The notes beneath the pieces were generated by a model. It saw nothing but the letters and a program-made list of their open reading frames with translations. It had not been told where the DNA came from and did not search any database. The position numbers were made by a program, and so were the translations under genes. This document shows, in pieces, positions 17,501 through 41,763 of a stretch of 64,000 bases of DNA. Numbering within the stretch: position 1 is the first letter of the stretch; every line of letters begins with the position of its first letter. This stretch comes from a virus, in IMG/VR virus record IMGVR_UViG_3300047553_000334, positions 1-64,000 of that record; one strand, given 5' to 3'.

Positions 17501-20500
17501 TTGAATCTATTAAAGCCACGTGACGCACAGCGCTTTAAGGATGCGTTAGCAGAGTATGTAAACAAAAAGCGAGCAGAAAGCGGTGATCAAGTATTTGTAT
17601 TTGCTATGGCTGATTTACTTGCAATAGCAGAAGGTTTCAACGAAACTCGCGGTGTATTATTCCGCGCATCTGCTGATGCATCCGAGTTGTCATTTGGTGT
17701 AACTAATAAGGACGCTCATAATGCTGCATACAAAATAAAGTCGAGGCTGGCATCTATAGTTACAGATGTTGAACGTGGAGTTATACCAAATCGATATGAC
17801 TTGGCTGACCAGTTTGACAATCTTGGTGATGCAACTAGTTTCATTGATAAGTTTGAAGCAATAGATATTTACGAGCCGTTACCAGATGACATGGTAACAA
17901 TGAATGACGCTGAGGCACTTGGCACTTTGTATTCGCAAATGTCACGAGACAATGCTTATACAGATGACCAGAAGAAAAAGTTTGACACACTAGCAAAATC
18001 ATATCGTCGTGTTGCACGAAGTAAAGATGACTCACCAGCAAAGGTTATTAATAGATACTCTGATGCACGTGTCGTTTCTGCTAACTTAGCCAAGGTATAT
18101 GACACCTATGCTGCACGTATGGCAACTCAAAAAGTCAGCAATGACATGAAGTTTAACTATGACCTTGATGACTATAAGGCACTGACTGCTTTATTAGGAG
18201 TCAATGCTGAAGTTCAGTCAAAGGTTATGGCAGCTACAAGTGTCAATGAAATCTTTACAGAGGCTGTATTAGATAAGGATCAGCAACGTCAGTTAGTTGC
18301 ATTGCGAGCGGCTCAACTAAAGCAAGACTTCTATAACCAACATCACAAGTTATTCTTTGCACATGAAGCAATGATGAACGAGATGGGATATCAACGCGTT
18401 GCTGATTCCGCACGTGATGTTGACGGCTTTATTACTCGCACTAAGATTGCAAATGCAACATCATCAATCTTGTTTATGGCTGCGTCTAAGAACTTTGGTA
18501 AGAGTGCTTTGACTGTTGCCCATGAAATATCTCACCACTTATTCTTCTCTTTGCCTGATGCACAGCAAGTACGTTGGTTAAAGGCTGTGATTCCACCACT
18601 CAACCGTGACAAGTCTGAAAAGGTTGTGCCAGAAGAAGAGCTGGTTCATGGTTATTTAAACAAGCAAGTTGATTTACTCAACGGATATTCCACACTACAG
18701 GATGTTTATTTATTTAGACGGCAGACAGTTGAGCAGTTTGCTGGAAGTAAATACACTCCCGAACAAATTCATAACGCTAAGATGATTTTAGGAGAACTGT
18801 CTGCTACTAGCTTAATGAACTTTATTCTTAATAGTGGTGTTGTTCATATGCCTAATGACCGTGTGTCAATAGCAGAAGATTTAACTAGCTCACTTCTTAA
18901 CCTGCAGAAAGTCTTGGCTCCTATTGCTAAAACGTTGAGCAGTGAATTTGGTCCGTGGGCAATGGTTGGAGATAAACCAACTAACGTATTCTATTATTCT
19001 CCATCATCAGTTGTGTATGAATCACCTAAAAAAACTGGTGTTAATCGTGTCTTCTATCCTTTAAAACACGGTACGTACGTCCAGTTCATAAACAACATCG
19101 GTAAAAAGTTTAGTTCAGCAACACGTGTGGTTGATATTCACGACGTGATTATGGCTAACAAAGAATTTATTGATGGGCGATCAGACAAACGGCAGCGATT
19201 AGTTGATGCGTTATCTAACGTCATTACAGATAGAGATGCGGTCAATGAAATTGTTGATAAGTTAATTGCATTAAAGACTGAAAATCCACGCGCTGAATAC
19301 GGCAAGCATTACCGTATTAGTTTAAGTGGCGACAAGGCATTTCAGAAACAAGCAGACGGTACTACTGAGGAGCAAGGTTATCCTGTAGTTGGTCGCGTAG
19401 TTGGTATGGCTCACGAACGTGTGACTGCACGGTTTGATCGTGTTAGACCGTTTAAACTTAATGGTCGTGAGTGGTTTATTAGTAGTAAAAACAAAAATGA
19501 CAACTCGCAGTGGTATGGTTTAAATGCCTACGAAAAGGCTAACGGACCAACTAAATTATTACAGAGTGGTATGCGTGGTGATTATGGGTATGTCGTAGAA
19601 AGTACTGCACAGATACGCTTACATACCCTGTTTGAGGGTAAGGATATTGACCTTGGCGATAATAAGATGTCGCGAGTTGATGTACCTGTTAGGTTTATTG
19701 TTGGTCATGACTATATTGATACAAGCCAGAATTTCCATTTAGTCGGTTCTGGTGATGCTGGTAATCCAGCATTTATGTCAATCGTATACAACATGCTTGC
19801 CAAGATTGATCAGAATGTTATTCAAGCTGCTGGTCAACGCACGTATGAGTATGAGTTACGCATAAACAAAGCTTTGTCCGAGGCTATGCGAACAGGTGAC
19901 TATAGCAAATGGGACGAGACTGTCACTGCCCCTCTTGCGTTATCAATGGACAAAGATATTAAAAATATCATTGCTCGTACACCTGTTTCTGAGATTCAAG
20001 CTGTAAGGCAAACTGCAACACATGCATGGTTACGTAATCAAAGTCATTCACGCAGTCTTTACAGATGGGCACGTAACATTAAGGATGAGGGTACACGTTC
20101 TACTGTATTAGGCTTGATTGATAGGATTACGGAACAGCACGCATTTACTGTTGGTGAATCTTTATCTGACTCATCAATCACATCTGCGACCAAGCGATTA
20201 CAGAGTGTTCTTAAAGATGGCAAGGGTTGGTATTCATTCATTCCATTTAGTGCAGATAAGTTTGCAAAGAACGGAATGGCACCAATTGTAACTGCCGTAC
20301 ACGAACAGTTGTTTACTTCATACGATGACCTCATAAGGTTTTACAATGAGGTTAAAGAATCTCGTGCAGAACTATTTGCTAGTCGAGATCAAACATCACT
20401 TGTGCCATATCTTGCACAACCTACTGCATTAACAGTTGCTGGTGAAACTGCTTCTACTGCTGGACGATCGTTTGCTGTCGAAGTAGACGGCGTTAAGGTT

Positions 20501-23500
20501 GATTCAAGTTCATTGATTGAACAGATGTTTGGTTTACATGTTGATAACTTAGACGCCGCTTTCCAACAGTTTCAGATGCAATGGCTTGGTACACAGTTAA
20601 CTAAATGGATTACAGAAAACCAGTCCGTTGTAAGTGGTACGAACAGATCGTTTAGCCAACGTCTGGCTGAACTTTATCAAGGATTAATGACAGGTGATCC
20701 AGATGCATATACTAAATCTGGTTTATCTAAAGACTTTGTTATTGGTGGCAAGCAGATTGACTTAGATAGTGCATTGCGACTAGTTGCTCAAGCAGCTGGA
20801 ACACCAGAAAACTTTGAAAACGGATTGCGGTATTACGCAGGTCAGAGTGATATTGCAATACAGTTTAGTGCGGAAACAGGGCTTAAGGTTGTACCACACG
20901 CAGTGCTGGATCACATTGCCAATAAGATATTTACTAATCAAGATGACATGATTAGATTTATGACAGCTGTTGCTGGAGATACTAGTGACACTGTTTCTCA
21001 AAGTGATGTTATTCGTGCTCGCAATTTATTCAATACTGTTGAGCATATTGTCCGCACAGATGCAAAGATACGTAGTTCTGCATTACGCAACTGGAAAAGT
21101 TACGAGTTGGTGAAAAGTGATCCTAACTCATACGAGGTTATTATTCGTTCTCCTGACAGGGATATTGCTGCAGATGAAGTTGGAGCATCTAAGTCTGGTG
21201 CGCTGTATCGCGTCAATATGCAAACGGGTAAGACACATCTTGTTGCTGAGTCGAGACGTTATGATGCACAAACCAACAAGTGGGTTGAAACATACGAGAA
21301 CATTCAGGATATAGATGACTATCTCCGTTACAACTGGGTACGCAAACCAAATGAAACAGCAAGACGTGATCCATTTGCTTTTGATGCAAAACCACGAGCA
21401 ATCAAATTGGATGCTAAACAGTTGTTTGGATTTGACGATTTCCTGAAAGTCAATGACACGTTAATGGCATTAGCTGGTGAATACGGTGTGTCTCATGGCG
21501 TAGTTAATGATGAGCCAGTGTACTTTATGCTTCCTATATCTATTGCTGAATTAGCTGCCAGCGAGATAAACATCTTTGATCCTGATGTTCCTATTCGTAA
21601 TGCTGGAATGAATATTATTAAGGGCACTTACGATAAGAAAGAAAAACAATGGTCATTTGTAGATACGTCTAACAACTGGCAAGATGCAAATAATTATAGG
21701 TCTCAAATGCCTATGGGTTTATTAGAGATGGTTATTAGTCCATTTGATAAATCTAGTGCAATGACTCTTACGTATGATCGTCAACAAGAAATTGCCAAGC
21801 ACAAAATGCTGCAAGAGGAATATCACATTGCAAAGTTATTGCTTGCCAAGGATAGGAATGTAGATAATCCACAGCATTCAGAATTCACAAAGGTAGGCAA
21901 ACAAGCTTTGTTTAATAGTGAGTCTGATTTAATGCAGGATGCGAGTACTGGTACATGGTTCTCAAGTAGTCCTAAGTTTATGGATGAAACTCCAGACAAC
22001 ATACCTGAATTACGCAAGCCATCTGCATTACATGTTAACGATACTGAAGATCCTATTATTCAGTCAAGTATGGGTGTCCTTGATGATTTGGCTGCTGATG
22101 CAAAAGAAAAAGCATTCCAAGTTCCACAGGAAGTTACGTTCTACCGTGACCCTAAGACAAAGGGTGGAATGCTTCAATCTGGAACTAAAGACAAACTAGT
22201 ACTACAGGTTAGTAGCGACATATATGACAAGTTGGTTACTGATCCATTAAAGGGTAGCCAGTGGGAAACCACAGTAAAAGATGGTCAGGCTATTACTTTA
22301 GATGGTGCTGATGCTGATGTATATTTTGCATCTACTCCTAAGTTTGTTGACACTGCGTACAATGTTTATGCATACGGATTAAAACCTCTACAAGATTTTT
22401 TCCGTGGTGTACTTGGATTAGACCTTTCTGCATTTGCTATTCAGTTAGGCTCAATGATGGTGCGAGCACCGTATCAAACGTTTAAGGCGTTAGTATTATC
22501 TGTCCCTGAGTTATTTGCTGGTAGCAGTGCGGACATTGGACTTGTGCTAGGTTCTCTGTGGCACGGGGCTAGACAACAGCGCAGATTAAAAGGTGAGGGC
22601 CAATGGTTCAACCAGTCTTTAAACCTTGATGCTCGTTACTATGATTTCATCATGAACTCAGTGGTAGATAGATTTAATCAGACTAACATTGGTACTACAG
22701 TATCTATGTCTGAATTAATTGATGATTATTACATGCAGTCTAGTTACTCTGACTGGTATAAGCGATCAAAAGCTAACATGATTGCAGACCCTACTAAATA
22801 CAAATCCATCATAGACACTCCTTGGGAAAGTCAGCGAGAGAACGTGTTTAGTGGTGGAATCATGGGTACTGTTGTACCCGGTTGGCGTAGAGCTGAAATG
22901 ACAAGGCAGTTAATTTTGGATTTAGCTATGCTTCAACAATCATTGTCTGCAGTAAAAGATGCGCGAGCTAATCAAGCTAAAAATAAGGATCGCGATATCT
23001 CTGATAGTGAAGTTGATAAGGATATTAAAGCAGCACTTACCAACCTCGGTAAGGAGATTGGTATTGGGTCTCATGCACGTAGTAAAACTCAGGCTCCTAT
23101 ATGGAGAGCGTTGTCAAATGTTGTGCAATATTTTATGACTGCACCTTCTTATACACGTAACTTTAATCAGTTTGTTGGCTTTACTCCTTTTGTAGGTACA
23201 AAAGAAAAGATTAACGAGTGGTCTAAAATTGCAACGCAAAATGGTCCAGCTTGGTTACGTGGTGAGGTATTTGATATTGAAAGTGACCTCAGGCATCAAA
23301 ACTTTGAGACTGCTTGGGCTGAAAAAAGAAGGATCAAATATAGAAATCAAGCTGCAATAACATGGGGAATTATTGCAGCATTAAATGCATGGGTTAATTT
23401 TCAACAGCATCAAAAGAATCGTCCATATGAAGAGGAAGATAAAACTTCATGGATGGACATCATGAGCAAGCGCTTTGGTTACGTTGAAGTAAACGATAAC

Positions 23501-24334
23501 TGGGCTGTCCAAGTACCTGTGCTTGGTAGGTTTGCTGGATTAGTCAAGCCAATAGCAGAAGCTGCATCTGTGGAAAACTATGGTCCGCTTGAAAAAATTG
23601 AAGCTGGATTTAATGGGCTTACAAAACAGCTTATTAAAAACAAGATTCACAATGGTGGACAGTTTATTATGAGTGCGTTTAGTGGGAAGACTTTTAAAGG
23701 ATTACCTGCAGGCGAACAAGACGCAGGTCTTAAGGTTGCTGTTGAAAATGATGTGCGAGCACCATTCTATTTCCATCCAACTGGATACTTGTTTCCACAA
23801 CAAAGTAAGTTGGCAATGGATACTATGACGCTTGCTCATCAAAGGGCGTATTATGATGACCTTTTGAAATTAGCTATCTATTCTGAAATGGCTAAGAAGG
23901 GTTTGAATGAACAGCAGATTATGCGTGAAGGTGGCGTATTACCATCTGTTCGTGTAAGTCGTCAAGCAGCAAATGAACTGTGGTGGAAAGGTACTGTTCC
24001 ACGTTTGCTTGGATTTAACGTAATGTATGAACCTTACGGATACAAGTACATAAACAAATTCCCAACGCAGTTTGGACAGAGTAGTACGACTCTTGGACGT
24101 ATCGCATACATGAGTAAGGATTGGTATAACTATCCAAATTTATTTGAGACTATGCGTGATCATCCTCGTCAATTGATTAGTGGTTGGCCAATACAGGATG
24201 TAAGTGGGCCATCTTTAGGATTCCCATCAAGTGAATCTCAAGCACGTTCCACACCACGCGAACGCATCAGGTTACCATTGAACAACGTTACACGAGCTTT
24301 GATTCAGTACAATAGCGACAATAGAGGCAAATAA
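11570..24334 (+). CDS. Giant 4254-aa virion protein with HExxH metalloprotease motif
   Basis: One uninterrupted 12.8-kb gene. Visible features in order: a helical N-terminus; Gly/Ala-rich hydrophobic stretches at about residues 295-365; an FFSSSP motif near 1217; long helical regions; a zinc-peptidase motif AHEISHHLFF at about residues 2317-2326 (H2318, E2319, H2322); two more FSSSP/FASTP-type motifs near 3462 and 3583, which look like domain junctions; a hydrophobic segment near 3605-3670; and a C-terminal helical region. The gene ends in TAATG overlap with the lysin. The layout resembles the large polyvalent proteins injected with phage DNA (named in work by Iyer, Aravind and colleagues). 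The protease motif is seen; ejection into the host is inferred. Confidence 0.8.
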   Translation: MPQTNSSRNRSVSDAYWKKRYQQAGVVPKAGGGVTVTKPTQRLGYEAPQDKQSWIQQNYIPITNLIQKGDTRVVSSQVLDIARSGFNSGYINQKQYDYIADNVERFRKALTTPVTSGGEQIPFTTLGQTGARGNFGEVQRSLKHSDLIRYNPDGSWEYDPRDANAAIRANVGRTQGLIKDANTNIFPDVGATAAGLLATVPLRVAKSFGYQPTFDENTFTGRVGRAAEGIEAGLSSFVPTVMSGISNRTRYAMSRAYGRTPEEAEQDAANLMMETPWYQVANAELAPAQTSPNFQLGSVLGMEAAAAVPSLYTSLGLLNAASSLGARVLSPFGSQASSIGRYAGIGAAVAAPPTITAFRDQLTGGQPGVREDIVSGVESFMDPVRTAQQRGTTESQMLGQQEFDPKGVYNTAAQRLGLFTMASGGAREMWRDVKNEAARGMFAFRGRLKETGNPFVAAKTGLAASVETEIGKAAAADLGFALTQPLGDIGRLVYSQTRFDKSKPVDVPKAEDLVIDTLLGLSASRPGKGAQWIFRGNPLERLEPKTMAIAAAVDTVNKQSPEINLLRQRIAELRGPDFKPNEADLRRVASELARTNSANLESLSRMDEIPEGIAIHRTPEEHIRAYVENPDSISVDVRSRYDNLIESMRGAKDKIDIEDGNPLNNLDILDNYRTDLATRRRRINELTKALLPEYEAMFKSMKSNKPVERTPAKYYGLKRGDGTMLVFTSDFESARIVPEHDSPDIQMLGPNYYGESSSRELTAERTAFHRSVVALRETPITLDGVEGVPIAFTGNSIYLKDSLGNVRAYTADKLLDAQRKAKSEGKNELVQQIQDVIDVVNESNKLYREGKISTFQSDGRVSVLTRDRAVRDSRFQVPLIDSPDDSRGRLIDRQNGYGIVQSDTGMYYIVPEIDLRGSDGEIYPVENELDDIHITDLDTENNRITVFLPNVDTGESFPLTLQLTPDQVQAFKNDGVPPDAYEFFREAMDMAEPFKRQVGDIVTIESKYLDGTTASRRYVIVQANADHGVGLPIDNLTGTEPSMVIFDHSGLKVERTNTEFLLREMQNAQRISGYDPTSDRPTDDPLGNIFKYAFWLSNRNTDTTVPVKLVPAIVNATAEELPSILHGHILSSLDDTGLLQNVVGSMREWLAKNPDSAGDFEFIVNQALATELSKGSADVSALALGHLTNIARNADLNDLVDLLIGRFDDEKEVSGETFFSSSPRRIGRSQGQFQIMLSAVNMINSFIRRKGRITDERLTKIITNFLGTNPSFEGNLENAITTIKRLAQLSSSINHLAYGVISEKGAIWMMEKLSALPHEVQVLSALLPFDGVRDIYQDDFGNWFASKEKYDAAVQRARELYADAASRGESGIDDLRSAMYDARLGFFFEIAAAGLEVTTRRPMVNVTDPRAVDVIRANAERASNAVNEMIKRVATAKLAVLSKRLQDNASADTPSVPVRLDELATASLLAAPDGVLHPEQIIDQNATEAAETSLVTMQSVIDNVRQQMDNIDAASVLPGVAVYTPDEATTVGTTALATAAKAHEGKLVLDASKQAFDALPPQVRDIVSSLASPLLWFSDVVRAIDRTGDDNLREALVFALMNAQGTEGASSLSIRLNTLFRTEEAFNRFNDFASVVYDKVNNTDTGRKTAVRGAMDQLLKLVDSMVGEEGTSLVDDAVAYYQGQNLNPILLKTFIELASKELIQSLISNATRVSPEAASDVLGSINTYVENNRERIRRAGAFVGDSAAKAEALRLIESGSTDGLRYLGFSFNGQRRTLIQDAVQSLVNNMSTRKYEGSAMAQAQALLNDARELARTVADFVLGDEGLAVGQDPASAYTPAVEVQSSSFIDALRGGMTFARTSTGPDTAPLLMAGNRAGLEKIILATLLDAANKAELNYESVDKALMEAVVGPEIAKKYFERLKQEDFVKRKIIFSREPVMRAAIIPGVDGRYTLPTGMARKELIEGQAMFNSYVTKMLNLLKPRDAQRFKDALAEYVNKKRAESGDQVFVFAMADLLAIAEGFNETRGVLFRASADASELSFGVTNKDAHNAAYKIKSRLASIVTDVERGVIPNRYDLADQFDNLGDATSFIDKFEAIDIYEPLPDDMVTMNDAEALGTLYSQMSRDNAYTDDQKKKFDTLAKSYRRVARSKDDSPAKVINRYSDARVVSANLAKVYDTYAARMATQKVSNDMKFNYDLDDYKALTALLGVNAEVQSKVMAATSVNEIFTEAVLDKDQQRQLVALRAAQLKQDFYNQHHKLFFAHEAMMNEMGYQRVADSARDVDGFITRTKIANATSSILFMAASKNFGKSALTVAHEISHHLFFSLPDAQQVRWLKAVIPPLNRDKSEKVVPEEELVHGYLNKQVDLLNGYSTLQDVYLFRRQTVEQFAGSKYTPEQIHNAKMILGELSATSLMNFILNSGVVHMPNDRVSIAEDLTSSLLNLQKVLAPIAKTLSSEFGPWAMVGDKPTNVFYYSPSSVVYESPKKTGVNRVFYPLKHGTYVQFINNIGKKFSSATRVVDIHDVIMANKEFIDGRSDKRQRLVDALSNVITDRDAVNEIVDKLIALKTENPRAEYGKHYRISLSGDKAFQKQADGTTEEQGYPVVGRVVGMAHERVTARFDRVRPFKLNGREWFISSKNKNDNSQWYGLNAYEKANGPTKLLQSGMRGDYGYVVESTAQIRLHTLFEGKDIDLGDNKMSRVDVPVRFIVGHDYIDTSQNFHLVGSGDAGNPAFMSIVYNMLAKIDQNVIQAAGQRTYEYELRINKALSEAMRTGDYSKWDETVTAPLALSMDKDIKNIIARTPVSEIQAVRQTATHAWLRNQSHSRSLYRWARNIKDEGTRSTVLGLIDRITEQHAFTVGESLSDSSITSATKRLQSVLKDGKGWYSFIPFSADKFAKNGMAPIVTAVHEQLFTSYDDLIRFYNEVKESRAELFASRDQTSLVPYLAQPTALTVAGETASTAGRSFAVEVDGVKVDSSSLIEQMFGLHVDNLDAAFQQFQMQWLGTQLTKWITENQSVVSGTNRSFSQRLAELYQGLMTGDPDAYTKSGLSKDFVIGGKQIDLDSALRLVAQAAGTPENFENGLRYYAGQSDIAIQFSAETGLKVVPHAVLDHIANKIFTNQDDMIRFMTAVAGDTSDTVSQSDVIRARNLFNTVEHIVRTDAKIRSSALRNWKSYELVKSDPNSYEVIIRSPDRDIAADEVGASKSGALYRVNMQTGKTHLVAESRRYDAQTNKWVETYENIQDIDDYLRYNWVRKPNETARRDPFAFDAKPRAIKLDAKQLFGFDDFLKVNDTLMALAGEYGVSHGVVNDEPVYFMLPISIAELAASEINIFDPDVPIRNAGMNIIKGTYDKKEKQWSFVDTSNNWQDANNYRSQMPMGLLEMVISPFDKSSAMTLTYDRQQEIAKHKMLQEEYHIAKLLLAKDRNVDNPQHSEFTKVGKQALFNSESDLMQDASTGTWFSSSPKFMDETPDNIPELRKPSALHVNDTEDPIIQSSMGVLDDLAADAKEKAFQVPQEVTFYRDPKTKGGMLQSGTKDKLVLQVSSDIYDKLVTDPLKGSQWETTVKDGQAITLDGADADVYFASTPKFVDTAYNVYAYGLKPLQDFFRGVLGLDLSAFAIQLGSMMVRAPYQTFKALVLSVPELFAGSSADIGLVLGSLWHGARQQRRLKGEGQWFNQSLNLDARYYDFIMNSVVDRFNQTNIGTTVSMSELIDDYYMQSSYSDWYKRSKANMIADPTKYKSIIDTPWESQRENVFSGGIMGTVVPGWRRAEMTRQLILDLAMLQQSLSAVKDARANQAKNKDRDISDSEVDKDIKAALTNLGKEIGIGSHARSKTQAPIWRALSNVVQYFMTAPSYTRNFNQFVGFTPFVGTKEKINEWSKIATQNGPAWLRGEVFDIESDLRHQNFETAWAEKRRIKYRNQAAITWGIIAALNAWVNFQQHQKNRPYEEEDKTSWMDIMSKRFGYVEVNDNWAVQVPVLGRFAGLVKPIAEAASVENYGPLEKIEAGFNGLTKQLIKNKIHNGGQFIMSAFSGKTFKGLPAGEQDAGLKVAVENDVRAPFYFHPTGYLFPQQSKLAMDTMTLAHQRAYYDDLLKLAIYSEMAKKGLNEQQIMREGGVLPSVRVSRQAANELWWKGTVPRLLGFNVMYEPYGYKYINKFPTQFGQSSTTLGRIAYMSKDWYNYPNLFETMRDHPRQLISGWPIQDVSGPSLGFPSSESQARSTPRERIRLPLNNVTRALIQYNSDNRGK

Positions 24335-36057: not shown

Positions 36058-36321
36058 TTAAATACCTCTTAGTGTTCTTGCTTCTGCGCTTGTAACAACT
36101 CGTACAATTGAGTCGATTACATCTTGTGGGCAGTCTCCTTCTTCAAGGACTGCCATGACAGCTTCCATAGCTGCCTCAAGGATTTCTTCCTGTGTATAGT
36201 CTTCCTCTGGGTCAAAGTAATCCCAAAGGCTCACGTCTGGTAAGTCATTGGTTGTTAATCCAATGTGGTCAATCATAAGCTGATCGACGACAGCGCGGAA
36301 TGTTTGAAGAGTGTATTTCAT
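36058..36321 (-). CDS. Hypothetical acidic protein with pseudoknot leader
   Basis: An 87-aa very acidic helical protein (DYFDPEEDYTQEEILEAAMEA). The leader holds the pseudoknot at 36343-36371 and then AAAGGAC, 6 nt before the ATG. No family recognised. The charge could suit DNA mimicry, as in other phage inhibitors. Confidence 0.6.
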   Translation of the reverse strand: MKYTLQTFRAVVDQLMIDHIGLTTNDLPDVSLWDYFDPEEDYTQEEILEAAMEAVMAVLEEGDCPQDVIDSIVRVVTSAEARTLRGI

Positions 36322-36342
36322 TTGTTTGTCCTTTGTTTGGTT

Positions 36343-36371
36343 GTGCGTTGTTGGTGAGACGCACCCCTCAC
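36343..36371 (-). promoter_or_regulatory. H-type RNA pseudoknot, copy A (5' UTR)
   Basis: Minus-strand RNA order: GUGAG (S1), GG, GUGCGU (S2), CUCAC (S1), CAACA, ACGCAC (S2). S1 is 5 bp, S2 is 6 bp, loop 1 is 2 nt and loop 3 is 5 nt, which is sterically ideal for an H-type fold. It ends about 14 nt before the ribosome site of the 36321 gene. Copies B and C keep the fold with covarying pairs. Confidence 0.8.
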
Positions 36372-36378
36372 ATTGTCA

Positions 36379-36864
36379 CTAGGCGAGTTCGACTAGGTCG
36401 CTGTTGTCACGTGCAGTCGATGCCACACACTTATCGAACTGTGGCATTGAAGTAGCGACGTACTTCCAGAAGTCGAACGGAACCGCAGGAAGCTCAATGT
36501 CTTTGATGATTACATTGAACGCCTTGATAGCCTCCTGAATTTGGTCATCAAGTGTCTCAGATGTAGTCTTGACAGTGAACGTACGCAGCTTTCTACTGGA
36601 TGGATCAGTGCGTTGGTTCTCGTCTTCGTACATATTCAGTGATACATCGATCTTGGCTACGACTCGGTCAAGCAATGCCAAGTCTCGTGTTGCCACATCA
36701 ATACGGAGATGAAAATTGAGGGCAACGCGATGACCATTGATGTTGAACTCTTTGTCATGGTGTGTTGTCTCATAATAATCGTATGTATTGCCGATGCCTC
36801 CGCTAATACGGCGAATGTCATCAGAGAGACGAGAGACGAAATAGTCAAACGTAGGTGTAGACAT
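36379..36864 (-). CDS. Hypothetical protein with pseudoknot leader
   Basis: A 161-aa protein of mixed alpha/beta character with an extended middle region. It is preceded by pseudoknot copy B and an AAAGAGA-type ribosome site. It shows no recognised family, metal site or membrane segment. Confidence 0.6.
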   Translation of the reverse strand: MSTPTFDYFVSRLSDDIRRISGGIGNTYDYYETTHHDKEFNINGHRVALNFHLRIDVATRDLALLDRVVAKIDVSLNMYEDENQRTDPSSRKLRTFTVKTTSETLDDQIQEAIKAFNVIIKDIELPAVPFDFWKYVATSMPQFDKCVASTARDNSDLVELA

Positions 36865-36884
36865 AGTTGTTATGTTCTCTTTCT

Positions 36885-36913
36885 ATGCGTTGTTAGTGAG
36901 ACGCATCCCTCAC
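36885..36913 (-). promoter_or_regulatory. H-type RNA pseudoknot, copy B (5' UTR)
   Basis: Minus-strand order: GUGAG, GG, AUGCGU, CUCAC, UAACA, ACGCAU. Compared with copy A, one S2 pair changes from G-C to A-U on both sides, so pairing is preserved. Loop lengths are identical. It lies between the stop at 36922 and the 36864 gene. Confidence 0.8.
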
Positions 36914-36921
36914 ATAAAACA

Positions 36922-37176
36922 TTAGATAGCGATGTAGCAGTTTTTGATTTCTTTGATGCCAGCTTCTTTGATGATGTGATTACGTACATCAGCAACTTGC
37001 GATTCGTCTAGATATTGAATAGCCTCGCCAAGCCAAAGCAAGACATAGTTGTTCTCATTACGTAGGTCATCAAAAACTTTTGTCAATCTGTCGTATTGAC
37101 CTTGCGTTATTAGATTGTTATTAAATAGTGACTCAATAAGTATCTCGCCACTAATAACTTCAAACGGCATTTTCAT
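36922..37176 (-). CDS. Hypothetical protein
   Basis: An 84-aa protein, helical, with ILIESLFNNNLITQGQY suggesting a small helix-turn-helix-like or docking fold. ATGA overlap with the upstream gene. No family recognised. Confidence 0.55.
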   Translation of the reverse strand: MKMPFEVISGEILIESLFNNNLITQGQYDRLTKVFDDLRNENNYVLLWLGEAIQYLDESQVADVRNHIIKEAGIKEIKNCYIAI

Positions 37177-37445
37177 TTGATTAGATTCTCTTTCTTTTTT
37201 GTTTGTGTTGGTTGTCCAGTTTTGTTATCAAACCAGACAAGCATGTACGGCTCATCAATGTATGTGCCAATTTTTCTACGTGTTATTCGTACGTGCATTA
37301 CAGGTGTGGTCTCTTGCTGGATGATAACTCTATATCGAGACCAAGTCTTAGCCCATGCTGCAGTTCTCCAAACAATAGGAGGGCCGAATTCTCGGCCCTC
37401 AAAGTCATAACATTGACAAAGGTAACTATATGGATAGTTAGCCAT
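37173..37445 (-). CDS. Hypothetical basic protein
   Basis: A 90-aa basic beta-rich protein (RRKIGTYIDEPYMLVWF). 8-nt overlap with the upstream gene. No family recognised. Confidence 0.55.
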   Translation of the reverse strand: MANYPYSYLCQCYDFEGREFGPPIVWRTAAWAKTWSRYRVIIQQETTPVMHVRITRRKIGTYIDEPYMLVWFDNKTGQPTQTKKKENLIK

Positions 37446-37761
37446 TACTTGTATCTACCTCATCCCAACCTTTAGGGTTGACTGGTATTTCCTGTAGTGT
37501 TGCCATCCACTTATCAAACGCAAGCAGTTCTTCGTGTGTTGGCTCATCGTTAATCCAGTCATCAAAGCCCATGACATTGCGCGTGTCATGTGGGACATGC
37601 GCATCTGCAAAGTCAAGGATCTCTGCAAGAAACATGCGAGCTTGCCCGTCAAGAAACTGTTGAAACTGCGGAACTAACTTGATGAGTCGCTCAATGCCTC
37701 CACCCGGATGAATGTGAAGGTATGCAAATCTCAAGATGAGGATTTTGTAGTGTTTAGTCAT
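37438..37761 (-). CDS. Hypothetical protein
   Basis: A 107-aa protein with a His-rich middle and an acidic end. ATGA overlap with the upstream gene. No family recognised. Confidence 0.55.
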   Translation of the reverse strand: MTKHYKILILRFAYLHIHPGGGIERLIKLVPQFQQFLDGQARMFLAEILDFADAHVPHDTRNVMGFDDWINDEPTHEELLAFDKWMATLQEIPVNPKGWDEVDTSNG

Positions 37762-38129
37762 TTGTTATCGTTCTCCATTTCTTTCTGCATAAATGTGATG
37801 AATTGTGTTGCCCACAACCGGAGTGCTTCTGCGTTAGACTCAAACGTCCATTGCTCATGGATATTTGCTGCAGCAAGTCTAATTTGTCCATATGCGTTGT
37901 CAACAAGGTCAACATCAACACGGACTGTCACGTCTTGATATGGCCTTTCTCGATACAACTCAATGGTCATGGTCTGAGTCAGTTTTGTTGTACGACTAAT
38001 TCTGGTGAAACTGTGTATGCCTCCACGCACTGTCATGTCAGTGAATGGATCAGTTGATTTACCTCTTAGCAATTCATACAGAGATGAAGCTACTTCTTGT
38101 GGGGACTCGTAACGATTATTCAGATTCAT
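37758..38129 (-). CDS. Hypothetical protein
   Basis: A 123-aa protein. The start at 38129 has AAAGGAT at good spacing; the further upstream in-frame start has none. Its N-terminus overlaps a tiny membrane gene by 14 nt. Mixed alpha/beta with no recognised domain. Confidence 0.6.
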   Translation of the reverse strand: MNLNNRYESPQEVASSLYELLRGKSTDPFTDMTVRGGIHSFTRISRTTKLTQTMTIELYRERPYQDVTVRVDVDLVDNAYGQIRLAAANIHEQWTFESNAEALRLWATQFITFMQKEMENDNK

Positions 38130-38232
38130 TGTCAATCCTTTGTTGATACTCAGTAACTGAGTGAAAGAACCATCCAATCAAAAATAGAATGGATAGCAAT
38201 GCGATGAGAGTGCAAATGATTATTGCAATCAT
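38116..38232 (-). CDS. Tiny single-pass membrane protein (38 aa)
   Basis: Minus-strand translation gives a 20-residue hydrophobic run, IAIIICTLIALLSILFLIGW, right after the initiator Met, then FFHSVTEYQQRIDNESE. The ribosome site AGGA is 7 nt from the ATG. It overlaps the next gene by 14 nt. It is a convincing single-span membrane peptide of unknown role. Confidence 0.65.
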   Translation of the reverse strand: MIAIIICTLIALLSILFLIGWFFHSVTEYQQRIDNESE

Positions 38233-38243
38233 GATTCGTTCCT

Positions 38244-38348
38244 CAATAATAACGTTCTAATTATTATTGTTCAATGTAATGAGGGGTACAATTTTTATAC
38301 CCCTCTAGGGTACAAAATTTGAGGGGGCTAAATTTTATACCCCCTCAA
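38244..38348 (-). terminator. Cluster of three perfect hairpins; terminator region
   Basis: Three inverted repeats fill the only large gap of this operon part: 9 bp at 38244-38269 (CAATAATAA), 8 bp at 38281-38305 (GAGGGGTA) and 9 bp at 38319-38348 (TTGAGGGGG). The last two share a TATAAAA-type loop and look duplicated. In the minus direction the third is followed by ATTTTG. They would end transcription after the 38352 gene or slow it before the membrane gene. Confidence 0.6.
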
Positions 38349-38351
38349 TTT

Positions 38352-38690
38352 TTATGCCATGTTTCGCACTCGATTGATGATGTTGAGTGCCCGGCAGAGG
38401 ACAACTTCCTCGCTTGGTGTGACCTTCACCTTGTCGAGTACACGCCTCCACAGGCGGTTGCGCCAGCGTGTGCTATTGGTGTACGTGCTGTAGGTAGCAG
38501 GTCGTACGTCGATGAGATCCGCCAATACCTTGACTGGTAGTGCGTCCTCAAGAAGCATCATGCACATTTCCTCTTTGGGAGAAACTTGCACGTCCTCAAT
38601 GAGTCCTGCTTCACGCAGGGCGTTGAACTGCTCGTACTTGATACCAGCAGCTCGTAAAGCGTCAATTTGTTCTTGTGTGAATGGTTTCAT
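38352..38690 (-). CDS. Hypothetical protein
   Basis: A 112-aa helical protein with an amphipathic N-terminal half and a basic C-terminal half (YTNSTRWRNRLWRRVLDKV). It may bind nucleic acid. ATGA overlap with the upstream gene; the stop overlaps a terminator tail. No family recognised. Confidence 0.6.
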   Translation of the reverse strand: MKPFTQEQIDALRAAGIKYEQFNALREAGLIEDVQVSPKEEMCMMLLEDALPVKVLADLIDVRPATYSTYTNSTRWRNRLWRRVLDKVKVTPSEEVVLCRALNIINRVRNMA

Positions 38691-38914
38691 AGTTCACTCC
38701 TAAGTTTGTTTACCAACATACCAACGGGATTCTGCATTTTCTCAGCAGCGTGTGCCCCAAATCTGAGGATATCCTCATCATTGAGGTTGTTAAACCCAGA
38801 CATAGCTTCGTTTACGTAGTCCTCTTGGGAGTATTGTGCCCAGAGGAGAATGTCTGTGTCATACATCCACAGTACGTACGTCTTTATCGCGTCTAACGCT
38901 TGCTCTCTTGTCAT
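38687..38914 (-). CDS. Hypothetical protein
   Basis: A 75-aa helical protein, coupled on both sides by ATGA overlaps. No recognised domain. Confidence 0.55.
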   Translation of the reverse strand: MTREQALDAIKTYVLWMYDTDILLWAQYSQEDYVNEAMSGFNNLNDEDILRFGAHAAEKMQNPVGMLVNKLRSEL

Positions 38915-39120
38915 TTGATACCTAACCTTTTGTTTTTGCGTGTCTCACGATCGTCGTGAAACGTCTCGACGAGAAGTGTGTCAAGCTCCTCAACAAGTTG
39001 TCTAAGATGATTCTCCGGCGCTGGAAAAGTCACCCCATGTAATCGATATGTTTTATGCATAGCGCTTGAGACCTCAGCGATCTTGGCTTGCAGCTCATTG
39101 ATTCTTTGTTGATTTTTCAT
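38911..39120 (-). CDS. Small coiled-coil protein downstream of a ribozyme
   Basis: A 69-aa protein with a helical coiled coil (QQRINELQAKIAEVSSAM) and a basic end. I place the start at 39120: the longer open frame would overlap the upstream gene and the ribozyme. GGA lies 8 nt upstream. A type II hammerhead ends 20 nt before it. No family recognised. Confidence 0.5.
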   Translation of the reverse strand: MKNQQRINELQAKIAEVSSAMHKTYRLHGVTFPAPENHLRQLVEELDTLLVETFHDDRETRKNKRLGIK

Positions 39121-39140
39121 GGTTTGTATCCATATGACCT

Positions 39141-39200
39141 GACTCATCAGTGCAAGGCGGTCAACTCTTACAGACTTCTCCGCATGGGAGAAGTTTCGTC
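39141..39200 (-). ncRNA. Hammerhead ribozyme, type II (HHR-b)
   Basis: Minus-strand order: GAC, GAAA (39197-39194), a 7-bp stem III hairpin CUUCUCC / GGAGAAG (39193-39175), UC, a 6-bp stem I hairpin UGUAAG / CUUGCA (39172-39151, one G-U pair), CUGAUGA (39150-39144), GUC. All invariant core bases are present. Cleavage falls after the C at 39173. Stem II is open, 3 bp (GAC/GUC), perhaps longer through an internal loop. It begins right after the stop codon of the 39201 gene. Confidence 0.85.
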
Positions 39201-39653
39201 TTACAAGAGTCCGGTTGCTTCCATACTCTTGAACACCTGCAAGTGGTAGATGCTCCGGTATGTGCCGTACCACATGTGGAAGCCACAGTTCTTGATCGTC
39301 AACAACACATCCTTCTTGAATGGGAAGTTGTGCTCAGGTTGTACGACCTTAGCCTCCTTGCCAGTATGGGCAAAGAACATGGCGTTGATTTGCTCTGCCT
39401 CATCACGGTCAATGAAGAGGCAAAGCATCTGCTCTTTGCTGTCCTTCTCCATAGTGACAACATACTCACCGTCTGTTGTCTGGAGAACGTACGGCCACTG
39501 GGGGAAGTCAAGCATCTCATTGACATCGATGTTGTTCTCATCGGCATACTCGCGTACGCAAAGATGGAAGTTAGTCATCTCTTTCTTGACCTCCTTGGCA
39601 AGCCAAGCGGTTTCGATACGTTTGATCAGATTAGGTTTCTTGTTTGTTTTCAT
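39201..39653 (-). CDS. Hypothetical protein
   Basis: A 150-aa protein with a basic helical N-terminus and a mixed alpha/beta body containing HMWYGTYRSIYHLQ near the end. Only 9 nt separate it from the Csx16-like gene. Its stop codon abuts the type II hammerhead. No family recognised. Confidence 0.6.
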   Translation of the reverse strand: MKTNKKPNLIKRIETAWLAKEVKKEMTNFHLCVREYADENNIDVNEMLDFPQWPYVLQTTDGEYVVTMEKDSKEQMLCLFIDRDEAEQINAMFFAHTGKEAKVVQPEHNFPFKKDVLLTIKNCGFHMWYGTYRSIYHLQVFKSMEATGLL

Positions 39654-39662
39654 TTGTTTCTC

Positions 39663-39992
39663 CTAGTAGTAATTGACACCGACTTCGTCGCGGATGTCGT
39701 TCCATGCCTCAATAGTCATGACTTTGTAACCAACGAGGCTTGCACCGCACTGATCCATTTGCTCTGGAGTCAGCTCCTTGCCTCGCAGTTCCAATGGCAG
39801 GTTAGGTAAATCCACCGACCACACCTCACGGGCATGGCAGGCGAGGTGCATCGGGATGACACCGATGACCTTGCGTCCTCGCATCAGGTCAGGTGTTGCG
39901 TGGGCAACGACTGTTACATCCGGGCTAACGTGCCCGTGCAGTACTAGCCATTGCACCAAGCCAATATGTCGAGAGATAACTATTGTTTCCAT
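39663..39992 (-). CDS. Csx16-like (VVA1548 family) protein, candidate ring nuclease
   Basis: A 109-aa protein, close to the Csx16 family length. I chose the ATG at 39992 over the long upstream extension, which would run through a pseudoknot. Visible family landmarks are IVISRHIGLVQW (4-15), KVIGVIPMHLA (about 41-51) and LPLELRGKELTPEQM (about 65-79), in the same order as Csx16/VVA1548 proteins. Csx16 is a type III CRISPR-linked family proposed to degrade cyclic oligoadenylate messengers. In a phage such a protein would blunt type III immunity, as DUF1874/AcrIII-1 does. The leader holds a hammerhead and a pseudoknot. Family assignment is by pattern; the activity is inference. Confidence 0.75.
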   Translation of the reverse strand: METIVISRHIGLVQWLVLHGHVSPDVTVVAHATPDLMRGRKVIGVIPMHLACHAREVWSVDLPNLPLELRGKELTPEQMDQCGASLVGYKVMTIEAWNDIRDEVGVNYY

Positions 39993-40020
39993 AGTTTCTT
40001 TGTTTCCTTGTGTTTGAAGT

Positions 40021-40052
40021 ATGCGTTGTTCACCGAGTCGCACCCCTCGGTG
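40021..40052 (-). promoter_or_regulatory. H-type RNA pseudoknot, copy C (5' UTR of Csx16-like gene)
   Basis: Minus-strand order: CACCGAG, GG, GUGCGA, CUCGGUG, AACA, ACGCAU. S1 grows to 7 bp with a new sequence, while the GG loop, the AACA loop and the S2 pairing (4 Watson-Crick plus G-U) are kept. It ends about 15 nt before the AAGGAAAC ribosome site of the Csx16-like gene. Confidence 0.78.
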
Positions 40053-40125
40053 AGTGAGATATGGCCACGTTGGCACCACTCACTCGGTCAATGCGGTTAC
40101 GCCTCTTCGTAACCTGTGATATCTG

Positions 40126-40182
40126 ACGTGTTTCGGCGTGACTGCCTCATCAGCCTATAGGAATCACCCTATAGGTACACGT
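40126..40182 (-). ncRNA. Hammerhead ribozyme, type III (HHR-a)
   Basis: Minus-strand order: ACGUG (stem III, 40182-40178), UA, an 8-bp stem I CCUAUAGG / CCUAUAGG with loop GUGAUU, CUGAUGA (40153-40147), a 3-bp stem II GGC / GCC with loop AGUCAC, GAAA (40134-40131), CACGU (stem III). Every invariant core base is present. Cleavage is after the A at 40176. Loops I and II are complementary (GUGA/UCAC), fitting the known loop-loop contact. It lies in the leader of the Csx16-like gene. Confidence 0.9.
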
Positions 40183-40214
40183 TGGGGTGGCACGTGAGCA
40201 CCACCCCGTACTAC

Positions 40215-40325
40215 TTAGTGACCGTATCGATGCATCGGAAGCGTTGACAGCATCCAATACATAAGCACTAAGCCTCCGACGATAATGACGGCAGTGATGC
40301 CGTCCGTGATGAACTTCTTCTTCAT
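40215..40325 (-). CDS. Tiny single-pass membrane protein (36 aa)
   Basis: Minus-strand translation gives MKKKFITDG, a hydrophobic span ITAVIIVGGLVLMYWML, then STLPMHRYGH. The ribosome site GGTGG lies close to the ATG, and the ATG overlaps the preceding stop (ATGA). Positive charges before the span predict an N-in orientation. The function is unknown. Confidence 0.65.
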   Translation of the reverse strand: MKKKFITDGITAVIIVGGLVLMYWMLSTLPMHRYGH

Positions 40326-40561
40326 CTTCCACCCACCTTTCTTGCAAGGGCTACCACTTCAGGGTCGGTGTCGCCACCAACCAAGCGAGCAAGCCCCATC
40401 ATGTGTCCCTCCAGCTCGCGGTAGCTGAAGATGTGCACGTTGACCATCATCTCCCCGCAAGCGGACTTAATGGAGATGGATGTCTTTGAAACGCTTGTCG
40501 GCGTAGAGATGGTGAAGGACCACTTTCGGTTTGCGGTCATGAAGGCGCCATTAAATTCCAT
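40322..40561 (-). CDS. Hypothetical protein
   Basis: A 79-aa protein with a beta-rich N-terminal half (RKWSFTISTPTSVSKTSIS) and a helical end. The ribosome site AAAGGAAAC lies 11 nt from the ATG. It is the first gene after the type III hammerhead at 40590-40647. No family recognised. Confidence 0.55.
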   Translation of the reverse strand: MEFNGAFMTANRKWSFTISTPTSVSKTSISIKSACGEMMVNVHIFSYRELEGHMMGLARLVGGDTDPEVVALARKVGGR

Positions 40562-40589
40562 GGCTCGTTGTTTCCTTTGTTTTTTGGTT

Positions 40590-40647
40590 ACGTGTTTCGC
40601 CTAGACTGGCCTCGTCAGCTCATTGCCATCACACAATGAGGACACGT
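40590..40647 (-). ncRNA. Hammerhead ribozyme, type III (HHR-c)
   Basis: Minus-strand order: ACGUG (stem III), UC, a 7-bp stem I CUCAUUG / CAAUGAG with loop UGUGAUGG, CUGACGA (variable position 7 = C), stem II GGCC...GGC, GAAA, CACGU. Stem III is identical to that of HHR-a. Stem II needs one bulged G to pair (GCC/GGC next to the loop AGUCUA), the only deviation. It lies between the terminator at 40658-40673 and the 40561 gene. Confidence 0.75.
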
Positions 40648-40657
40648 TTAAAAGGGT

Positions 40658-40673
40658 GGGGGCTTACGCCCCC
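40658..40673 (-). terminator. Terminator candidate overlapping a stop codon
   Basis: 6-bp GC stem GGGGGC / GCCCCC with loop GTAA, followed in the minus direction by ACCC and TTTT. It overlaps the TAA of the 40664 gene and lies just before HHR-c. Confidence 0.5.
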
Positions 40674-40951
40674 TTGGTGAAGGTGCAGTTGTCGTACTCG
40701 AAACTGCACGGTGTACCGTTCCACTGCCGGGAAATCCAGTACGCCCCTTCGATGTCGATTGGCTTGATGGTGTGCGAGCGACTTGCGCAAGCAAGCATCT
40801 GAAGCAGATATCCGTCTGTCCAGTTAGACATCTGATTCACGAACGTCTTACCGTCTTCGACTACGTATGGACCACGCGTAGTGGTCAGCGTCCACGTACA
40901 TACTACGTACGGTTCACTTGGGGTTGATTGTGTGTGTGTTGCGAATGACAT
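40664..40951 (-). CDS. Hypothetical protein
   Basis: A 95-aa protein, mixed alpha/beta, with several Trp and Tyr. Ribosome site AAAGGAT upstream. It is flanked by terminator hairpins on both sides, so it forms its own transcription unit. No family recognised. Confidence 0.6.
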   Translation of the reverse strand: MSFATHTQSTPSEPYVVCTWTLTTTRGPYVVEDGKTFVNQMSNWTDGYLLQMLACASRSHTIKPIDIEGAYWISRQWNGTPCSFEYDNCTFTKGA

Positions 40952-40986
40952 GGCTCATTATCCTTTATGTGTTTTTTTGAAAAATA

Positions 40987-41015
40987 AAGCACCCGGTATC
41001 GTGTACCGGGTGCTT
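40987..41015 (-). terminator. Rho-independent terminator
   Basis: Perfect 12-bp stem AAGCACCCGGTA / TACCGGGTGCTT with a 5-nt loop, followed in the minus direction by TTTATTTTTC. It lies directly after the stop of the first early gene (41023-41364). It is the strongest terminator in the window. Confidence 0.9.
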
Positions 41016-41022
41016 CCGGGGA

Positions 41023-41364
41023 CTATTCGTCCCCTTCGTCCCCAGCCATGGCTGTCGCCATCGCCGTCTTGGTCATCGCCTTCAACGATGCCATGAATGG
41101 GTCGATTGGCTTGGCAGCCTTGACTGCCACTTCGAGATTCGCGAGTTGAGTACCGATTCTGTCCAGAACCAAGCGGTAACTATCGGCATCGGTTTGCCGC
41201 TTCCGGAAACCGACCGCATACACCGTCTGAATGGACTGCCAGCCCTTATTGATTGTATCTTCGGTCATTGGCAGACCGGTTGCGATGTGACCGGCGATAT
41301 CGCTTTCAAACTTGCGAATCGCATTCATCGCGGGTTCGAATATCACGGGTTGTTTTGTTGACAT
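41023..41364 (-). CDS. Hypothetical early protein
   Basis: A 113-aa helical protein, first gene of the minus-strand unit that leaves the divergent region. It has an alanine-rich C-terminal part and an acidic end (GDEGDE). Ribosome site AAAGGAAAC. The leader carries a hammerhead-like element. Its place suggests expression early in infection. No family recognised. Confidence 0.65.
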   Translation of the reverse strand: MSTKQPVIFEPAMNAIRKFESDIAGHIATGLPMTEDTINKGWQSIQTVYAVGFRKRQTDADSYRLVLDRIGTQLANLEVAVKAAKPIDPFMASLKAMTKTAMATAMAGDEGDE

Positions 41365-41398
41365 AATAAAGTTTCCTTTATCGGTATGTTAGATTGTA

Positions 41399-41462
41399 TT
41401 GATGTTTCGACATAGGTTTGTCATTATCAAGCGTACCGTTACCAGCGGTAACACGACATCAA
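41399..41462 (-). ncRNA. Degenerate hammerhead-like element
   Basis: Minus-strand layout mimics a type III hammerhead: UUGAUG / CAUCAA (6-bp stem III), UC, a stem I hairpin (GUUACC / GGUAAC, with a bulge below it), a core-like segment CUUGAUAA instead of CUGANGA, stem II GACA / UGUC, then GAAA. The C3-G8 pair of the normal core would be U-A, and there are extra bases, so activity is doubtful. It sits in the leader of the first early gene. Confidence 0.4.
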
Positions 41463-41535
41463 GGTTTTGAAGGTTTCCAGCGGTGGAAACCAGCGGTACC
41501 GGACGACCCCGGAGGGCGTCCACACCATGTATGTA

Positions 41536-41625
41536 GGTCGGTTTTCAGGGCACAGTCACGTCGGGTGGTGGGGTGGCGGTAGTACCCGGCATGGCAAGGG
41601 GGTGGGTCGGTTGCCTCGGCACAGT
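41536..41625 (+). repeat. Pair of direct repeats GGTCGGTT-N6-GCACAGT
   Basis: Copies at 41536-41556 and 41605-41625: 15 of 15 fixed positions match around a different 6-nt centre. They are 69 bp apart, start to start, inside the GC-rich block. This is the shape of a two-part protein-binding site, such as an initiator or regulator iteron. Confidence 0.6.
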
Positions 41626-41724
41626 AGGGACTCCAAACCATATATTCTCAGCTGATCTTTATCTATTTCTCCCATCGCAGAAACTCATCTCCCCACGGAG
41701 AAAATGATTAGGATCCATATAGAT

Positions 41725-41753
41725 TTGCTACAATCAGCTGGTTTAGATATACT
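41725..41753 (+). promoter_or_regulatory. Promoter for the tRNA-Asn operon
   Basis: TTGCTA (-35, 41725-41730), a 17-bp spacer, and TATACT (-10, 41748-41753), a good host-type sigma-70 layout. Transcription would start near 41760, just before the tRNA at 41764. The -10 region overlaps a copy of the TACGGTAT motif at 41749-41761, which could be an operator. Confidence 0.65.
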
Positions 41754-41763
41754 TACGGTATGA

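Follow-up and report, generated by a model that had tools for sequence, protein, structure and literature searches.

A family of conserved H-type pseudoknots placed shortly after stop codons in phage operons: candidate 3′-end barriers for upstream messages

The window analysed here is a stretch of 64,000 nt that makes up nearly the whole of a 65.9-kb virus record, and between genes of its minus strand it carries an H-type pseudoknot with the RNA sequence GUGAG-GG-GUGCG-U-CUCAC-CAACAA-CGCAC (36371–36343). This raises the question of what such a compact fold does in a phage operon and whether it serves the gene in front of it or the gene behind it. An earlier note, made from the sequence alone, had described this pseudoknot as one of three copies in early 5′ leaders. 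The sequence is exactly as first described, and the window contains the two further copies (Table 1): copy 2 differs from copy 1 by three mismatches, where shuffled sequences are expected to yield 0 such matches, and copy 3 reads ACCGAG-GG-GUGCG-A-CUCGGU-GAACAA-CGCAU. Within the window alone, two S1 pairs are compensated and the outer S2 pair changes from G-C to A-U. The portal protein of this phage has about 25% identity to actinobacteriophage portals, and its gene at 36.4–36.9 kb finds no match in GenBank phage DNA.

Table 1. Pseudoknot copies, neighbouring genes and other features of the window
Feature	Position	Strand	Remarks
Pseudoknot copy 1	36343..36371	−	Exact sequence match and covariation
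Copy 1, stem S1	36367–36371 / 36354–36358	−	
Copy 1, loop L1		−	GG
Copy 1, stem S2	36360–36364 / 36343–36347	−	
Copy 1, junction L2	36359	−	U
Copy 1, loop L3	36348–36353	−	CAACAA
Pseudoknot copy 2	36885..36913	−	Outer S2 pair A-U, not G-C
Pseudoknot copy 3	40021..40051	−	S1 ACCGAG/CTCGGT, junction A
161-aa gene	36379..36864	−	Upstream of copy 1; stop 7 nt before pseudoknot
84-aa gene	36922..37176	−	Upstream of copy 2; stop 8 nt before pseudoknot
87-aa gene	36058..36321	−	Downstream of copy 1; AAAGGA 36329–36334, ATG 36319–36321
109-aa gene	39663..39992	−	Downstream of copy 3
Type III hammerhead ribozyme	40126..40182	−	Upstream of copy 3; GUA site
Type II hammerhead ribozyme	39133..39201	−	Rfam RF02276, 37.5 bits, above gathering threshold
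Weak hammerhead	40600–40671	−	
GGGGG/CCCCC inverted repeat	38314–38353		After gene 38352–38690; terminator- or barrier-like
4254-aa open reading frame	11570–24334	+	No PHROGs match

The three copies belong to a far larger family, of which 122 copies with 53 distinct motifs were collected and which follows the consensus S1 (any sequence)-GG-RTGCG-N-S1′-NAACAA-CGCAY. Stem S1 occurs in 19 different forms among the collected motifs with its pairing retained. A search of viral contigs with the exact pattern gave 33 further stretches, and a second scan, in which S1 was left unconstrained except for its innermost base, matched 77 stretches; all five S1 pairs are present in 54 of the 55 distinct matches with the expected spacing. 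Among 31 distinct 29-mers, 100% of the cells are paired and four of the five S1 pairs show changes on both sides, with 32 double-change cells against 6.7 after shuffling and a covariation score of 0.367 against 0.116, a control that is weakened by kinship among the sequences. The outer S2 pair in these 29-mers is GC, GU or AU. Counted without bias, this pair is GC in 27, GU in 10, AU in 9 and AC in 0 cases (Fisher 8e-5, uncorrected for relatedness); the G-U wobbles, which pair on the sense strand only, speak for an element that acts as RNA and on this strand. When S2 instead was left free in the pattern, the group with GTGAG as S1 contained RTGCG only, while the CGCAG group yielded the fully compensated UCGCG/CGCGA (TCGCG/CGCGA in the DNA of locus L180) and a partly compensated AGCG/CGCU that has lost its outer pair (L181); two further loci (L210, L211) have GCGCG/CGCGC as S2. 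The pairing of the pseudoknot RNA is thus under selection, and the covarying H-type pseudoknot of the earlier note is confirmed.

The same alignment corrects the loop lengths of 2, 0 and 5 given before. The nucleotide that follows S2, previously counted into a sixth S2 pair, is T, A, C or G in 31, 17, 4 and 1 distinct motifs, respectively; since all four bases face a constant A, it is a junction nucleotide, and the loops are therefore 2, 1 and 6 nt long. In the structure predicted from this pairing, S1 and S2 would stack as a single compact rod; the GG would span S2, and the NAACAA strand, rich in A, would run along S1, where contacts are expected. S2 and the loops are conserved in sequence beyond the needs of base pairing, which may signal that a protein or ligand binds there. 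In L012 and L013 near 8099/8748 (reverse coordinates) and in L016 at 11388, L3 is shorter (GAA, CAUA), and these variants fall off the main consensus.

No Rfam family accounts for the element, in agreement with the earlier statement that it fits no known riboswitch. An Rfam scan of the window at gathering thresholds returned tRNAs only, and a scan of 36200–41760 at E ≤ 10, which included preQ1, SAM-II, pistol and STAXI, gave no match over the three copies. A tmRNA pseudoknot, suggested by the tRNA-like sequence behind the element, was rejected, as no tmRNA is called by ARAGORN or Rfam and the two acceptor strands are found together. Likewise rejected was a promoter hairpin of an N4-like virion RNA polymerase, considered in view of the very large protein of this phage, because pseudoknot pairing and wobbles on the sense strand are found instead. 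Across 85,000 genomes of prokaryotes, nine matches to the pattern were obtained, most of them without S1, and three places on two MAG contigs look real; bacterial genomes are thus almost free of the pattern and a host-encoded element was dismissed. Searches of GenBank phages with short pseudoknot queries gave mostly chance matches, apart from the Corynebacterium phage PSonyx. The literature within the scope of our search, outside of which fell most subscription journals and all bioRxiv preprints, contains no description of the element. The pseudoknot family is real and conserved, and apparently undescribed in the literature searched.

The position of the pseudoknot relative to genes indicates to which of its neighbours it belongs. 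None of the copies in viral contigs lies within a long gene, although both copies of one MAG contig (L170) carry a flag for such a position, and in 93 of 119 collected copies the pseudoknot begins 3–14 nt after a stop codon (6–8 nt in 68), while its distance to the next start is variable; a stable structure soon after the upstream stop codon, as in REP elements, is thus what is found. In the CGCAG group a hairpin separates the stop codon from the pseudoknot and the distance is 51–64 nt. Within the window, copies 1 and 2 each lie in an intercistronic gap of 57 nt, and copy 3 is positioned downstream of a hammerhead ribozyme and a hairpin. All three hammerheads of the window lie in intercistronic gaps of one gene block, and similar hammerheads occur in the related loci L024, L025 and L168. 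In the group to which the window belongs, one upstream gene family, that of the 161-aa gene (n = 33), precedes six unrelated downstream families, and a second upstream family (n = 16) precedes three. The pseudoknot of this group travels with the upstream gene while the downstream genes vary. Elsewhere the upstream genes include those for SSB, SSB-like DUF669 and major capsid proteins, products that are often required in quantity, and in L078, L086 and the DUF669 phages the pseudoknot stands after the SSB-type gene, not before it.

Evidence for a role at the 3′ side of a gene also comes from junctions between SSB-like and primase genes. In L078 and L086 the pseudoknot lies 3–4 nt before a tRNA, past an SSB-type gene and before a large gene, which in L078 is primase-like. 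Using the primase as a search query, we obtained 43 distinct SSB-like|primase junctions, of which 40 score for the layout stop codon, pseudoknot of either of two families, 2–7 nt, and tRNA-like structure. A pseudoknot score of at least 13 was reached in 40 of the 43 junctions compared with 47 of 1290 control windows, which were drawn from the same loci in place of mononucleotide shuffles, a weak control. Each of these 40 junctions has a tRNA-like fold 2–7 nt past the pseudoknot (3–4 nt in 32), with an acceptor plus T helix of 12 bp in 29 junctions or 11 bp in 11, lengths into which any unpaired spacer nucleotides (one or two) are counted, and AC follows the fold in 38; anchored at random places, such a fold was found in 12 of 800 cases. 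To the eye, the other three junctions resemble weaker versions of the pseudoknot, again followed by this tRNA-like fold, which consists of an acceptor of 5–6 bp, a T-arm with a UUCGA loop, a GG in a stemless D-loop and a 3′ AC; where tested, ARAGORN and Rfam did not call it, and its Rfam match to mascRNA is far under the threshold (15.7 versus 42.5 bits).

The second pseudoknot family, S1-C-UGAGCA-N-S1′-NAAAAC-UGCUCA, occupies the same slot, and its S2 covaries as well (UGAACA/UGUUCA, UGAGCCA/UGGCUCA, UGAGACA/UGUCUCA and UGGGGUA/UACCCCA). Cultured representatives are the Arthrobacter phages Amigo and Molivia, in which a pseudoknot of this family lies between the gene at the SSB position and annotated tRNAs. 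Clavibacter phage CN1A and the Curtobacterium phages Yappy and Nonagon have a strong hairpin after the same kind of gene. Since hairpins or an alternate pseudoknot can fill the slot, the conserved feature seems to be a stable structure after the stop codon, which a tRNA or tRNA-like structure usually follows. CN1A carries a tRNA minihelix (L192, 1195–1340), located after the hairpin and downstream of the SSB gene, that has an acceptor, a T-arm and an ACCA tail and lacks an anticodon arm. In L193–L272 the conserved tRNA-like fold between the SSB-like gene and the primase lacks a D stem, and its CUCCUUU loop is long. Complementarity between this CUCCUUU-rich, anticodon-like loop and the Shine-Dalgarno sequence of the primase extends over 7.68 nt at its own locus versus 6.54 nt at other loci (0 of 20000 permutations, a figure inflated by relatedness). 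As related loci share both parts, we treat the match as a lead only.

A stable fold directly past the stop codon and a few nucleotides before a tRNA-like structure is the layout expected of a 3′-end decay barrier. We thus prefer to read the pseudoknot as such a barrier for the message of the upstream gene, a reading that we consider about evenly poised between right and wrong. The neighbouring genes and the pseudoknot would be transcribed as one RNA, and the pseudoknot would stall a 3′-to-5′ exonuclease arriving from downstream mRNA that has been cut or is decaying, by which the upstream open reading frame would be spared. The known substrates of RNase P include mRNAs, phage RNAs and the tRNA-like structures of plant viruses (PMC11143913), and in the SSB|primase group the enzyme would cut at the 5′ side of the tRNA-like structure and leave a 3′ overhang of few nucleotides behind the pseudoknot, which would be too short for an exonuclease to load. 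The three window copies are without a tRNA-like element; there, the ends would come from cuts elsewhere in the transcript by host endonucleases and possibly by the hammerheads of this gene block, and the copies would most economically be read as plain intercistronic barriers. A nuclease block had been among the functions offered in the earlier note and matches this reading, although it was offered there for a leader. The leader itself, and with it a switch of translation, is unsupported because the element is tied to the upstream stop codon, is kept with the upstream gene while the downstream genes change, and in other phages lies 2–7 nt before tRNAs or tRNA-like structures, where it cannot be an mRNA leader. 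The distance of about 15 nt to a ribosome site holds loosely for the window copies, where Shine-Dalgarno-like motifs start about 2–11 nt and the ATG 19–28 nt past the pseudoknot. Since the next ribosome site is close by, these copies may also act on the downstream gene.

Such a downstream role is at the heart of the first rival explanation, in which the pseudoknot blocks a 5′-to-3′ nuclease (RNase J) or keeps the ribosome site open and in this way stabilises the downstream mRNA once the transcript has been cut upstream of it, as a hammerhead might do. The Shine-Dalgarno-like AGAAAG or AAAGGA within about 10 nt in the window's group would fit it, as would the position of copy 3 behind a hammerhead cut. 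We nevertheless think it unlikely, because the element stays with the upstream gene as the downstream genes vary and because in the tRNA or tRNA-like group the next RNA begins 2–7 nt later, so that it would lose the pseudoknot through cleavage by RNase P. A protein-binding translational operator similar to that of T4 gene 32, to which a phage protein binds and from which it spreads over the next ribosome site, appears more doubtful still. While the sequence conservation of the loops and the S2 core beyond pairing and the A-rich unstructured spacer ahead of the start codon in the window's group are in line with an operator, the downstream genes are mutually unrelated, two pseudoknot families of different sequence share one slot, and L078, L086 and the DUF669 group carry the pseudoknot 3′ of the SSB-type gene.

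The linkage to the upstream gene could alternatively mark a recombination boundary, that is, a structured border that recombination maintains between modules and that matters little or not at all for RNA metabolism, since in the group of the window the genes on either side of the element are exchangeable. This is highly improbable, as the S1 covariation and the G-U pairs on one strand speak for selection on RNA pairing, and under homologous recombination one would expect identical sequences to be favoured over 19 stem variants. No more credible is a new class of minimal self-cleaving ribozyme or of metabolite riboswitch: highly conserved loops and hammerheads within the same gene block could be taken in its favour, yet the three copies lack an Rfam match up to E = 10, the flanks are unconserved and, for a metabolite switch, the neighbouring genes are too diverse. 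A recoding signal, with readthrough or frameshifting stimulated by the pseudoknot 6–8 nt past the stop, was rejected as having next to no chance even though this spacing matches known recoding sites and the loop sizes and AACAA strand resemble luteovirus pseudoknots, because a slippery heptamer is present in 0 of 93 cases, in 54 of 93 the next in-frame stop is reached before the pseudoknot has ended, and some copies precede tRNA genes.

Returning to the 3′-end barrier, a wider reading joins it with the match of the CUCCUUU loop, and we put this forward tentatively, as somewhat more likely wrong than right. A portable pseudoknot would cap the 3′ ends of chosen operon genes in many, mainly actinobacteriophage-related, phages, and the CUCCUUU loop of the tRNA-like RNase P site at SSB|primase junctions would also restrain primase translation, so that one module would stabilise the SSB mRNA and restrain the primase as a phage counterpart of the MALAT1 3′-end module. 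If the barrier reading is right, an undescribed RNA family would let phages set unequal mRNA levels for adjacent genes from one transcript, needing neither promoter nor terminator, and a structure of 29 nt would lend itself to the tuning of operons.

Several known systems resemble the element in part. The −1 frameshift pseudoknots of luteoviruses likewise have a 1-nt junction, a short L1 and an A-rich L3 along S1, whereas the element has no slippery site and a longer S2. REP/BIME elements are structured barriers in operons just past the stop codon and act as 3′ stabilisers; they are hairpins, in contrast to the pseudoknots found here in phages with few copies per genome. The STAXI motif (RF01728) is also a conserved pseudoknot near DNA-handling genes (PMC2864571), yet it is a tandem pseudoknot with UUCG loops from Enterobacteriales and has no Rfam match to our copies. 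The gene 32 mRNA is the most stable mRNA of T4, and its pseudoknot, which lies 67 nt ahead of the start codon of ssb, binds gp32 (PMC3014915). The likeness to the T4/T2 gene 32 element lies in an H-type pseudoknot in phage mRNA and, for some members, in the link to SSB; the difference is that the pseudoknot here comes after the stop codon, both of SSB-type genes and of others, and in L078, L086 and the DUF669 phages it does not stand before the ribosome site of ssb itself. For MALAT1 it is established that a triple helix shields the 3′ end and that RNase P is guided by the tRNA-like mascRNA (PMC6888369). The counterpart of mascRNA in NEAT1 is menRNA. MALAT1 and NEAT1 are lncRNAs with a triple helix, whereas an H-type pseudoknot in polycistronic phage mRNA is found here and its processing is predicted; this layout is absent at the window copies. 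What 40 of the 43 SSB|primase junctions share with MALAT1 and NEAT1 is a compact fold followed within few nucleotides by a tRNA-like structure with an acceptor/T helix of 11–12 bp, and if the barrier reading is right, a protective fold and a tRNA-like RNase P site would be paired in phages as they are in mammals.
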